Shown here: piece by piece, positions 16,018 to 57,634 of the stretch
How the letters are laid out: the number at the start of each line of letters is the position of its first letter
Position numbering within the stretch: the first letter of the stretch is position 1
Origin: Candidatus Acididesulfobacter guangdongensis
Lineage (GTDB): Bacteria; SZUA-79; Acidulodesulfobacterales; Acidulodesulfobacteraceae
Length of the DNA stretch: 64,000 nucleotides
Direction: 5' to 3'
Assembly: GCA_004195045.1 (NCBI GenBank)
Contig: SGBC01000001.1
Span: 62,001 to 126,000, forward strand
Translations under genes and position numbers: made by a program
Notes under the pieces: generated by a model
Seen by the model: the letters and a program-made list of their open reading frames with translations, nothing else
Databases searched by the model: none
What the model was told of the DNA's origin: nothing

Positions 16018-16107
16018 GGAAAAGGTGTCAGATTTATTTTTTTGCAAATATTTTCTTTGTTAATTGAACTACTCTATATGCAAAAAAATAAATCTGACAC
16101 CTTTTCC
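16018..16107. repeat. 90-bp palindromic repeat, family A, copy 1
   Basis: Perfect 29-bp inverted repeat beginning GGAAAAGGTGTCAGAT, with arms 16018-16046 and 16079-16107 around a 32-base loop. Two more copies lie at 47992-48082 and 57229-57319, sharing both arms and the loop. It is a non-coding, non-autonomous element (MITE- or REP-like) located just after the yhaM-like gene. Confidence 0.9.
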
Positions 16108-16113
16108 TTTATT

Positions 16114-16163
16114 GCTTAACCGAGCAAAGAAATGCATAAATATTTTCTATTGCAGGACTAAAG
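16114..16163 (+). repeat. Repeat family B (about 48 bp), copy 1
   Basis: Runs from GCTTAACCGAGCAAAG to GCAGGACTAAAG. Near-identical copies are at 27071-27118 (reverse) and 43766-43815. Its last 20 bases are the box that recurs at seven intergenic sites. It directly follows family A copy 1. Confidence 0.85.
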
Positions 16164-25760: not shown

Positions 25761-25836
25761 GAAAAGGTGTCAGACACCTTTTCCGGAAAAGTATACGGTA
25801 AAATGAGTAACATAAAAAGGTGTCAGACACCTTTTC
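25761..25836. repeat. Two short palindromes GGTGTCAGACACC between queA and tgt
   Basis: Two palindromes, GAAAAGGTGTC-A-GACACCTTTTC at 25761-25783 and AAAAGGTGTC-A-GACACCTTTT at 25816-25836. A third half-copy (GAAAAGGTGTCC) precedes them at 25746-25757. They share the terminal sequence of repeat family A but lack its interior. On RNA they would form strong hairpins and might also end queA transcripts. Confidence 0.85.
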
Positions 25837-47960: not shown

Positions 47961-47982
47961 CCTTAATCCTGCAGTAGAAAAT
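47961..47982. repeat. Dispersed box, copy with CCTTAATCCTGCAGTAG
   Basis: One of seven intergenic sites with consensus TTAATCCTGCAATAGAAAAT. Here it lies nine bases before family A copy 2. Confidence 0.85.
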
Positions 47983-47991
47983 TATCTACTT

Positions 47992-48082
47992 GGAAAAGGT
48001 GTCAGATTAATTTTTTTGCAAATATTTTCTTTGTTAATTGAAGTATTCCACATGCAAAAAAATAAGATCTGACACCTTTTCC
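47992..48082. repeat. 91-bp palindromic repeat, family A, copy 2
   Basis: Same arms and interior as 16018-16107. The arms differ by one inserted base and one or two substitutions, so it is not a perfect palindrome. Confidence 0.9.
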
Positions 48083-48163
48083 TTAATATTGATTTTTTAT
48101 ATCGTATATTTATTTATTTTTAATTTATTTTTAATTTTAACTATATTTACAAAATTAAATTCA

Positions 48164-51769: not shown

Positions 51770-52306
51770 ATGACGACGGAACAAAAAATTGCGAATAAAG
51801 AAGCTAAAAATATAGACGTGCTGCATGAAGACGCTGCGGATTTAATCGAGTCGGGCGACCCTGATTTCACGCCGGAAGAACTCGCTGCAATAAAACAAAA
51901 TTTAATTGCAATGAGAAAAGCTCTTTTAAAAGAAATAGATATGAGCATTAAGGAGGGTTCTTCTAAAGACACTACTGAACCAAGCGGAGATATATACGAT
52001 ATTTCCTCAAATGAAAGAGACCGTGAATTGTCTTATATGCTTGGCGATAGAGAAAGAAACAAATTGAGAGAAATAGATAACGCAATTTCTAAAATTGAAG
52101 ACGGAACATATGGCATATGCGATGAATGCGGAGAAATTATTTCTAAAAAAAGATTGTCGGTTATTCCTTATTCTAATCTATGCATAGCCTGTAAATCAAA
52201 AATAGAAAAAGAAGAAAAAGAGAAGTTAAACGACAGCTATTCCGATAATTTTAATGCGATAGCAATTTTAGACGAAGATACGACATATAATCATACGGAA
52301 GAATAA
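51770..52306 (+). CDS. DksA/TraR-family C4 zinc-finger protein
   Basis: 178 residues. N-terminal coiled coil, then GTYGICDECGEIISKKRL and NLCIACKSK, the four-cysteine zinc finger (C-x2-C...C-x2-C). DksA-type proteins bind RNA polymerase in the secondary channel. The Asp pair at the coiled-coil tip is not clear, so activity may differ from DksA. Preceded by AAGGAGAC. Its last 16 bases overlap the end of the peptide-ABC ATPase gene, tail to tail. Confidence 0.82.
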   Translation: MTTEQKIANKEAKNIDVLHEDAADLIESGDPDFTPEELAAIKQNLIAMRKALLKEIDMSIKEGSSKDTTEPSGDIYDISSNERDRELSYMLGDRERNKLREIDNAISKIEDGTYGICDECGEIISKKRLSVIPYSNLCIACKSKIEKEEKEKLNDSYSDNFNAIAILDEDTTYNHTEE

Positions 52307-53289
52307 TACGGAAAAAAACAATTTACCTGAACATCTCCGTTTTCTTTTAGCTCTGGTTCATTATTAACACATTTGTCTTCTCTTCTGCCGCATAACTTAT
52401 AATATACGCAGCCTCGGCTATTTTTTTCAATTCCTGCGTTTATATTGTTTACATTAATATTTCCGGCATCAGCAAATTGCAATATATTTTTTGGACCGTA
52501 TGCCAGAATCGATTCTAATAAGACTTTTGAATAGGGATGCAGAGGACCGTCGAAAAATTTATCTACAGGGGATATTTCCATGATTTTTCCGCCGTACATG
52601 ACACAGACTTTATCAGCCATATGTCTCACTAATCTTAAATCGTGGGTTATAAATATATAAGTAAGATTATTTTTTTCATGTAAATCTAAAAGCAGATTTA
52701 ATATCTGAGCTGAAACAGAAACGTCAAGAGCTGACACCGGCTCATCGAGCACAAGAAGTTCGGGATTAACCGATAAACTTCTTGCTATAGATATTCTCTG
52801 CCGCTGCCCTCCTGATAACTCATGCGGAAATTTGAAAACATAATTTTCATCTAACCCTACTTTTTTAAGCATCTGCATTGAATATTGCAGAGCATCTTTT
52901 TTTTTAATGATTTTATTTTTTATTGCCGGCAACGATACAATTTTATAAATCTTTTTTTTGGGATTTAGCGAAGAATACGGGTCTTGGAACACTATCTGAA
53001 TTTTTTTTCTCAAATCTAATTTTTTTAAATTATAATTTAATATATTGCCTTTATAAAAAATTTCACCGGAAGACCTGTTTGTAAGTCCTAAAATTAATTT
53101 TGACAATGTCGATTTCCCGCACCCTGTTTCGCCGACAATTGAAAAAATATCGCCTTTGTAAACCTTAAAAGAGACATTGTCTACAGCTTTTATAATATTT
53201 TTTTTAAAATTAAATAACGAACTATAGCCGGAATAATGTTTACTCAGCTTATTGATGCTTAACACCTCAGAATCCTTGCCGTTATCCAT
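52291..53289 (-). CDS. Peptide ABC transporter ATP-binding protein (OppF/DppF type)
   Basis: 332 residues. Walker A GETGCGKSTLSKL near 55, signature ELSGGQRQRISIA, Walker B LLVLDEPVSALDVS, His switch ITHDLRL. The C-terminal region has CVYYKLCGRREDKC and a later Cys, the conserved cysteines of the oligopeptide C-terminal extension, which bind an iron-sulfur cluster in characterised DppD-type proteins. Energises uptake of peptides or nickel. No permease or binding protein is nearby. Confidence 0.9.
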   Translation of the reverse strand: MDNGKDSEVLSINKLSKHYSGYSSLFNFKKNIIKAVDNVSFKVYKGDIFSIVGETGCGKSTLSKLILGLTNRSSGEIFYKGNILNYNLKKLDLRKKIQIVFQDPYSSLNPKKKIYKIVSLPAIKNKIIKKKDALQYSMQMLKKVGLDENYVFKFPHELSGGQRQRISIARSLSVNPELLVLDEPVSALDVSVSAQILNLLLDLHEKNNLTYIFITHDLRLVRHMADKVCVMYGGKIMEISPVDKFFDGPLHPYSKVLLESILAYGPKNILQFADAGNINVNNINAGIEKNSRGCVYYKLCGRREDKCVNNEPELKENGDVQVNCFFPYYSSV

Positions 53290-53372
53290 AAAATAGAGTT
53301 ATAGAATTATATAGTTGTAGAGTTATAGAGTTATATTATTATAATTATAATATAGATATAATATAATATAGA

Positions 53373-53430
53373 TACAATATAGATATATTGCAATTATATA
53401 GTTAATTATAATGTAATAATTAGCTATATA
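53373..53430. repeat. Hairpin repeat, left copy
   Basis: 58-bp unit starting TACAATATAGATATATTGCA. Its second half folds into a hairpin with arms TTATATAGTTAA and TTAGCTATATAA (one G-T pair). The matching copy is at 53491-53548; the family A short palindrome lies between. Confidence 0.8.
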
Positions 53431-53440
53431 AGAAAGAAAA

Positions 53441-53463
53441 GAAAAGGTGTCAGACACCTTTTC
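53441..53463. repeat. Short palindrome GGTGTCAGACACC, third copy
   Basis: GAAAAGGTGTC-A-GACACCTTTTC, same as the pair at 25761-25836. Followed by the 20-bp box in reverse orientation at 53471-53490. Confidence 0.9.
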
Positions 53464-53470
53464 CGAGTAA

Positions 53471-53490
53471 CTTTCTATTGCAGGATTAAA
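53471..53490 (-). repeat. Dispersed box, reverse copy
   Basis: CTTTCTATTGCAGGATTAAA, the reverse complement of the TTAATCCTGCAATAG box. Confidence 0.85.
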
Positions 53491-53548
53491 TACAATATAG
53501 ATATATTGCAATTGCATAGCTAAATATAATTTAATAATTAGCTATGCA
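53491..53548. repeat. Hairpin repeat, right copy
   Basis: 58-bp unit like 53373-53430. A 14-bp-arm perfect inverted repeat AATTGCATAGCTAA / TTAGCTATGCAATT spans 53510-53551. Two base pairs of the stem differ from the left copy by paired changes. Confidence 0.85.
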
Positions 53549-53557
53549 ATTCTTTTA

Positions 53558-54544
53558 TTATATATTTACGCATCTTGCAAATCTCCCACTGCCTAATTTT
53601 AACAGCGGAATTTCATTTAAACATCTTTCGGTCTTTTTAAAACATCTGCTGTAAAACCGGCATTTTCCCGATTTAAAATCACTCTGGCTCAATGAACCAG
53701 GAATTACAAAAAGTCTTTCACGCGGAGCATAATCTTTTGATAAACCTGGAACTGATTTCGTTAAAGATATTGAATACGGATGCGCCGGATTATTTATTAT
53801 ATCTTCAGTTAAGCCATATTCCATAATTTGTCCTGCGTAAAATACTATCGTTTTATCAGAAATATTTCTTGCAATGCTTAAATCGTGCGTTATAAATAAT
53901 ACGCTGACATTTTTTTCGAACCGCATTTTTTCAATCAGGGCAAGAACCTGAAGCGAAGTTTTTACGTCTAATGCTGTCGTCGGTTCATCGGCGACAAGCA
54001 CAGCCGGCTCAAGCACCATTGCCATTGCAATCATAACTCTCTGCCTCATTCCTCCCGACAGTTCATGAGGATAAGAATTAAAACGGGCTTTTCCGTCAAT
54101 CCTCATAAGTTCAAGATAATGTATCGCAATGTCGCAGGCATCTTTTTTTTTCATTTTTTTATGCGCTAAAATTGCTTCAATGATTTGATCTCCTACTTTT
54201 ATAACAGGATTTAACGAAACATTGGGGTCTTGAAAAATCATTGAAATTAAACGCCCTCTTACACCGCTTAATTGATTCTCTTTTAATTTTACAATATCAA
54301 CTTTTTCAAAACCGCCCGAATCTGATATTGATATACTGCCTGATGAAATCTCGGATATGTAAGGAGGATTAAGCCTCATTAGCGATAAGCCTAAAAAAGA
54401 CTTTCCGCTTCCGGATTCGCCCACAACGGCAATTATTTCTCCATTTTGAACGCTGAATGAAACGGAATCTGCAACATTGAAGAATTCTTTTTTTTTAAAA
54501 TCTGTATAAAGTTTTACGGTCAAATCGTCAATTATCAAACTCAT
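53558..54544 (-). CDS. Peptide ABC transporter ATP-binding protein (OppD/DppD type)
   Basis: 328 residues. Walker A GESGSGKSFLGLSLMRL near 38, signature ELSGGMRQRVMIAMAM, Walker B LVADEPTTALDVKT, His switch ITHDLSIARN. The C-terminus keeps CRFYSRCFKKTERC and a final Cys, as in oligopeptide transporter ATPases. The partner OppF-like gene follows after 268 bases of repeats. argS lies upstream and no permease or solute-binding gene is next to either. Confidence 0.9.
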   Translation of the reverse strand: MSLIIDDLTVKLYTDFKKKEFFNVADSVSFSVQNGEIIAVVGESGSGKSFLGLSLMRLNPPYISEISSGSISISDSGGFEKVDIVKLKENQLSGVRGRLISMIFQDPNVSLNPVIKVGDQIIEAILAHKKMKKKDACDIAIHYLELMRIDGKARFNSYPHELSGGMRQRVMIAMAMVLEPAVLVADEPTTALDVKTSLQVLALIEKMRFEKNVSVLFITHDLSIARNISDKTIVFYAGQIMEYGLTEDIINNPAHPYSISLTKSVPGLSKDYAPRERLFVIPGSLSQSDFKSGKCRFYSRCFKKTERCLNEIPLLKLGSGRFARCVNI

Positions 54545-57197: not shown

Positions 57198-57219
57198 CTT
57201 TAATCCTGCAATAGAAAAT
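57198..57219 (+). repeat. Dispersed box, forward copy
   Basis: CTTTAATCCTGCAATAG box with AAAAT following, nine bases before family A copy 3, the same arrangement as at 47961-47992. Confidence 0.85.
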
Positions 57220-57228
57220 CATCTGTTC

Positions 57229-57319
57229 GGAAAAGATGTCAGATTAATTTTTTTGCAAATATTTTCTTTGTTAATTAAACTACTCCATACGCAAAAAAAT
57301 AAAATCTGACACCTTTTCC
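57229..57319. repeat. 91-bp palindromic repeat, family A, copy 3
   Basis: Like copies 1 and 2, with GATGTC in place of GGTGTC in the left arm. The interior TTTTGCAAATATTTTCTTTG segment is identical to the other copies. Confidence 0.9.
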
Positions 57320-57634
57320 TTATAACCCATTGATATTATTATATTTTATTTTTTATTTTGCAGTCCGCATAGACATTTCTATTGCCTCATAAATATAGTA
57401 ATATCAATGTGTTGCTGATAATTATGGTGAAGTTGGGTTAAGAATATAAATTAAAAATTTTATTTCTAATTTATCCTTTTATCTGATAAAATATAAATAT
57501 ATATAATATATTTTAAAGTGCATGGTGCCAAACAATATTGTTGAGTTGCGATACGGATTATAATACGGTAGAATCAGCAATAAAATATGACGGCTGCAAA
57601 ATTGTAATACAAAAAAGAAAGAGGTGAATATAAA

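Follow-up and report, generated by a model that had tools for sequence, protein, structure and literature searches.

Paired stem differences between two hairpin copies beside a probable MITE-type insertion remnant in an ABC transporter spacer of Candidatus Acididesulfobacter guangdongensis

If two neighbouring hairpins differ at both sides of the same stem pairs, does this mean that the stem has been maintained? This question is raised by the spacer between two oligopeptide/dipeptide ABC transporter ATPase genes of Candidatus Acididesulfobacter guangdongensis, located in the window analysed here, a stretch of 64,000 nucleotides (assembly GCA_004195045.1, contig SGBC01000001.1, positions 62,001-126,000, forward strand). 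The gap between both genes is an AT-rich spacer that holds two hairpin blocks and a palindrome, and no tRNA was found near the site. The features to which the text refers are listed below, in window coordinates.

52291-53289, minus strand: oligopeptide/dipeptide ABC transporter ATPase, downstream gene (PF00005, PF08352)
53369-53427, plus strand: left copy of the local 59-bp block, a direct-repeat family; the block occurs only at this locus in the genome
53394-53431, plus strand: left hairpin, from the fold and from junction and arm comparison
53428-53491, plus strand: truncated MITE-type element, with a piece of the left arm, cargo palindrome, right arm and right end; ATATAAG starts at 53426
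53442-53462, no strand: cargo palindrome AAAAGGTGTCAGACACCTTTT, its core found at 43 sites in the genome; terminator-like on the minus strand (53464-53440, T-rich tail)
53472-53489, minus strand: terminal inverted repeat, from end matches (reverse box TTTCTATTGCAGGATTAA, the reverse complement of TTAATCCTGCAATAGAAA)
53487-53545, plus strand: right copy of the local 59-bp block, direct repeat; its first bases overlap the element's end
53510-53551, plus strand: right hairpin, from the inverted repeat and the fold
53558-54544, minus strand: oligopeptide/dipeptide ABC transporter ATPase, upstream gene (PF00005, PF08352)

A preliminary description of this spacer reported two related copies of one sequence around the palindrome and the reverse box, each folding as a hairpin, and both observations hold. 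The copies lie at an offset of 118 and are identical at 53 of their 59 bases, the six differences being at 53371, 53396, 53397, 53402, 53406 and 53413. With DNA parameters, the left hairpin folds at -7.8 kcal/mol (z -3.3, 3 of 200 shuffles as good) and the right one at -12.9 kcal/mol (z -5.0, 0 of 200). Elsewhere in the same genome the block has no other strong match (next best E 0.003). The hairpins are local sequence.

The same description had drawn attention to paired changes in the stem. Such differences exist, as three stem pairs read A-T, T-A and T.G on the left and G-C, C-G and C-G on the right, but they are not what they seemed. Positions 53396 and 53397 form the 5' side of the outer stem, and their 3' partners (53429 and 53428 in the left hairpin, 53547 and 53546 in the right) sit just outside the duplicated block. 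The third change, at 53402, is one-sided and strengthens a wobble pair, from T.G on the left to C-G on the right. A further difference that had gone unmentioned, T53406 to A53524, turns a T-A pair into an A/A mismatch in the right copy; the remaining two fall in the loop (53413) and outside the hairpin (53371). Within the block, one change thus strengthens a wobble, one breaks a pair, and none is two-sided. The "compensatory" pairs say little about compensation, because their left 3' partners lie outside the block: 53428-53431, the four outermost 3' bases of the left hairpin, match the element arm and not the duplicated block. These bases belong to ATATAAG (53426-53432), which in other copies of the element stands before the palindrome. 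The simplest reading of the left outer pairs is therefore that they formed with element sequence that is by chance rich in A+T.

What, then, is the piece between the blocks? It belongs to a repeat family of this genome whose ends measure 20 bp (CCTTAATCCTGCAATAGAAA). The copy is truncated, with its right end, right arm and cargo palindrome preserved; because the left end is missing, no target duplication can be read at this copy. In 11 of 138 distinct half-sites ATATAAG lies at most 12 nt upstream of the half-site, nine of the eleven having a GCAAAATATAAG-type arm. The match at the junction is a short one of 7 nt, 2 of which lie in the block, and 9 extra nucleotides come after it. Here the duplicated block ends against the element arm, and the right block starts at the element's right end, where the last two terminal bases are succeeded by ACAAT, a sequence that the left block contains as well.

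Matches to the region occur at 66 places in this genome, some of which are the two strands of one site, and the 19-base core of the element end has 70 forward and 71 reverse matches genome-wide (up to 3 mismatches). I fetched 72 stretches around family matches for comparison. Copies with two ends of the CCTTAATCCTGCAATAGAAA type number 38, a set in which a few ends may be due to chance because up to 4 mismatches were accepted, and in which nested or broken copies (e.g. L072, L075, L088, L288) were kept; they span 75-227 bp between their TTAA ends. Just outside the ends, an exact 5-bp direct repeat is present in 24 of these 38 copies; when left and right flanks were re-paired 200 times, such repeats numbered 1.9 on average and never more than 6. 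L278, L287, L293 and others show an empty form, about 80 bp long, and filled forms carry GGAAAAGGTGTC...GACACCTTTTCC, one with the palindrome in the middle and another, of about 181 bp, with the palindrome halves about 65 bp apart. The inverted ends, the 5-bp target duplications and the occurrence of empty and filled forms are the reason to assign the family, on sequence grounds, to the MITE-type elements with a REP-like palindromic cargo. Three further copies in the window (16018-16161, 47962-48090 and 57199-57393) have a long split-palindrome centre; the first is without its left end, the second without its right end, and in the third the right end is degraded.

With RUP, NEMIS, ERIC and Nezha, which are listed as bacterial MITEs (PMC3733652), the element has in common, as far as they are outlined there, a length of 70-300 bp, inverted ends, a fixed short target duplication and a dispersed distribution. 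It differs from them in that its centre holds a separate palindromic cargo, and in that no parent IS was found. Its length makes a coding gene unlikely, and among the end pairs listed no autonomous transposase with the family's ends (CCTTAATCC) was found. L275 was considered as an autonomous parent, sought as a converging perfect end pair at 0.5-3 kb among the ends listed, and was rejected as it holds ordinary open reading frames and two elements. Its movement would be the work of a transposase that acts on the ends in trans, a proposal that rests on the ends and the target duplications because no autonomous transposase was found. Searches with the empty element against phages and the full element against plasmids gave no match, nor did the letters GGTGTCAGACACC and GGTGTCTGACACC in a text search of the literature.

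It had also been suggested that the bracketing reflects an insertion, either between tandem copies or with a long target duplication. The insertion itself is upheld, in the sense that an element was inserted next to a duplicated block, and the long target duplication is not. That the 58-bp copies were made as a target-site duplication by the inserting element would fit their directly bracketing it; however, target duplications in the family are 5 bp long, there is a 10% difference between the copies, and the left end of the element is missing, so that I regard this origin as highly improbable.

The empty site, which the preliminary description proposed to look for in related genomes, does exist. 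I compared the orthologous gap in six relatives of the same genus (G001-G006). In G003 and G005 it holds one copy of the block and no element; the single-copy state is thereby observed, and the duplication is found only in the genome studied here. The gaps of G001 and G004 are short and without the block, that of G002 has no recognisable block, and in G006 the gap is spread over two contigs, with another insertion in it. This insertion (contig C96, locus L095) is independent, with other ends (AAATCACCGTTAGAAA...TTTCTAACGGTGATTT) and the cargo of the sister species described below. Short imperfect 8-bp tandem repeats lie upstream of the left block, at 53294-53341, and similar runs are seen in G001, G003 and G005. 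The G003 counterpart of the hairpin folds well (z -4.2), and that of G005 no better than shuffles (z -0.77).

The interval is thus very probably a decayed MITE-type insertion, with 20-bp inverted ends, a 5-bp target duplication and a REP-like cargo, in an AT-rich spacer that already had one weak hairpin. The element would have inserted at ACAAT while the spacer contained a single hairpin block. The 118 bp from 53428 to 53545, with breakpoints within the left arm and directly behind the stem, would then have been duplicated in tandem, and the subsequent loss of the first, intact element would have left a block, a truncated element and a block. An alternative order, in which the tandem duplication came first, followed by the insertion and a deletion of the element's left part, would fit equally well.

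G003 also gives an indication of what the stem may have looked like earlier. Its 5' arm is that of the left copy, and its 3' side, CAATT, is close to that of the right copy; the outer two pairs were for this reason probably not intact before. The better pairing of the right hairpin is probably due to point changes or to a correction of its 5' arm with the hairpin as template. For the latter, template-switch correction of quasi-palindromes offers a described precedent, at least in outline (PMC8794818). The three changes in the right 5' arm (53514, 53515 and 53520) lie within 7 bp and make the arm of G003 and of the left copy the complement of the right 3' arm, as a single template switch would do in the absence of any selection. 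However, they are three changes only, all of them transitions, for which independent substitutions could account, and T53406A in the same arm goes the opposite way. Such an event, which is compatible with a decayed insertion, is a reasonable possibility that I nevertheless hold to be somewhat short of even.

Alternatively, the hairpin may serve the ABC operon as a functional structure in RNA or DNA, for instance as an mRNA stability or processing element between both ATPase genes, with a stem kept by compensatory change, as the claim that the stem has been maintained would have it. Both copies and the G003 copy do fold better than shuffles, and the right hairpin begins only a few bases after the stop codon of the upstream ATPase gene. 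One pair, moreover, reads T-A in G003, T.G in the left copy and C-G in the right copy, a series that is real support for the predicted pairing. However, the gaps of G001, G002 and G004 are without the hairpin, that of G005 does not fold beyond chance, and the Rfam scan of the window gave 0 matches at gathering score. Of the three paired changes, two are located where the block meets the element, and another stem change breaks a pair. The covariation check that had been proposed did not help the claim either: over the four available sequences three pairs have two-sided changes, a number that 63 of 500 shuffles reach. Sliding the partners by 1-3 columns leaves 0 two-sided pairs, which favours the stem, yet the structure was taken from the same sequences. 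Selection on the stem is therefore weakly supported at best, the impression of a maintained structure being for the most part an effect of the junction, and a functional structure of this kind appears decidedly improbable as the source of the pattern.

The palindrome may have an effect of its own. On the strand of the genes it is terminator-like, with 11 pairs and a T-rich tail, and two such sites are present in a 451-bp region where 0.1 would be expected. A role as terminator or attenuator between the ATPase genes would be a side effect of the inserted palindrome and not the origin of the pattern; as the likeness is a consensus match only, with four G-C pairs, I consider this role unlikely.

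The palindrome is itself dispersed. Its core was absent from 100 shuffles, and is thus not expected by chance, and occurs at 43 sites in the genome (39 exact, 4 with one mismatch), with element ends on both sides in 13, on one side in 14 (the present copy included) and on neither side in 16; here too ends with up to 4 mismatches were counted, of which a few may be due to chance. Two palindromes at 25765-25779 and 25818-25832, 53 bp apart and with no element ends nearby, lie upstream of a possible open reading frame start at about 25920. The exact 21-bp palindrome is found in 6 of 30 genomes of the family, with 37 copies in this genome and 1 or 2 in the others, and in at least 120 stretches of other genomes, the hosts among the matches listed being Planctomycetota, Syntrophomonadaceae and other Bacillota, Deltaproteobacteria, Rhodospirillales and Collinsella. 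Clustering of the open reading frames that adjoin it in 80 of these loci did not reveal a common neighbour family.

A link to REP-associated tyrosine transposases (RAYTs) came from a search with PF01797 and not from this clustering. Transposases with PF01797 are present in 14 of 15 palindrome-bearing genomes sampled, and in 6 of the 30 Y1_Tnp loci of these 15 genomes the palindrome stands on both sides of the gene (in some with 1-2 mismatches). Conversely, 6 of 120 palindrome loci match those RAYT-type proteins, and 4 of the 120 are flanked by palindromes on either side within 800 bases. The bracketed genes are in records of Bacillota, Planctomycetota, Rhodospirillales and Collinsella. The NCBIfam RAYT model NF047646 is matched by seven proteins (five that are bracketed, and two from this genome's relatives that are not), one of them above the cut-off and the other six with scores of 62-77 versus 80. 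The RAYT open frames of two loci (L238, 1012-1929; L246, 1159-1923) overlap at their ends with the bracketing palindromes, whose translation would give VSDT-type residues. Because the palindrome brackets RAYT-type genes in these other phyla, the cargo can be called REP-like and, there, RAYT-linked. This bracketing is the feature it has in common with REP/RAYT systems, but unlike in those, the palindrome in this genome is without a bracketed RAYT, and many of its copies ride inside MITE ends. In the genome itself PF01797 is matched twice, once at full length (147.6 bits) and once in broken form, and neither match lies near a palindrome. No GTAG/GGAG or CGTC tag was seen by eye beside the palindrome in the listed copies.

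The cargo is not the same in all species. The palindrome of this genome (GGTGTCNGACACC), in its 37 exact copies, has no exact copy in G002 or G006, where the same ends mostly surround a second palindrome, TGGATTCCCGC...GCGGGAATGAC, or a variant form (ten fetched copies, L295-L304, e.g. L295 and L301). Allowing up to one mismatch, this second palindrome is matched 61 times in G002, 54 times in G006 and not at all in the genome studied here. Within 200 bp of it lie 18 of 62 end matches in G002 and 23 of 50 in G006, versus about 0.6 and 0.4 expected by chance. The sister-species cargo may belong to the CGTC-1/dRS3 class, judging from the dRS3 sequence. A literature search with terms for this cargo gave, among the matches listed, only papers that are unrelated by title. 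REPs inside longer palindromes have been reported before, namely GTAG-15 in A. variabilis and CGTC-1 in H. neapolitanus, and CGTC-1 elements in Neisseria have been equated with dRS3 (PMC3733652). As these are outlined in that report, the likeness lies in a REP-type palindrome in the middle of a longer inverted-repeat shell, and the difference in a shell that makes 5-bp target duplications and whose ends carry different cargos in sister species. It is tempting, though doubtful, to see in the MITE ends a chassis for RAYT-type palindromes, loaded with a different one from species to species, such that two unrelated routes of mobilisation would share one element and cargos would be exchanged.

The site itself is ordinary, and the wider element family is of moderate interest. 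The locus illustrates how an insertion junction, and not selection, can give rise to paired differences in the stems of two copies, and it cautions against inferring covariation when two sequences are compared. How REP-type palindromes come to spread where a genome has no RAYT of its own could be learned from the element family.
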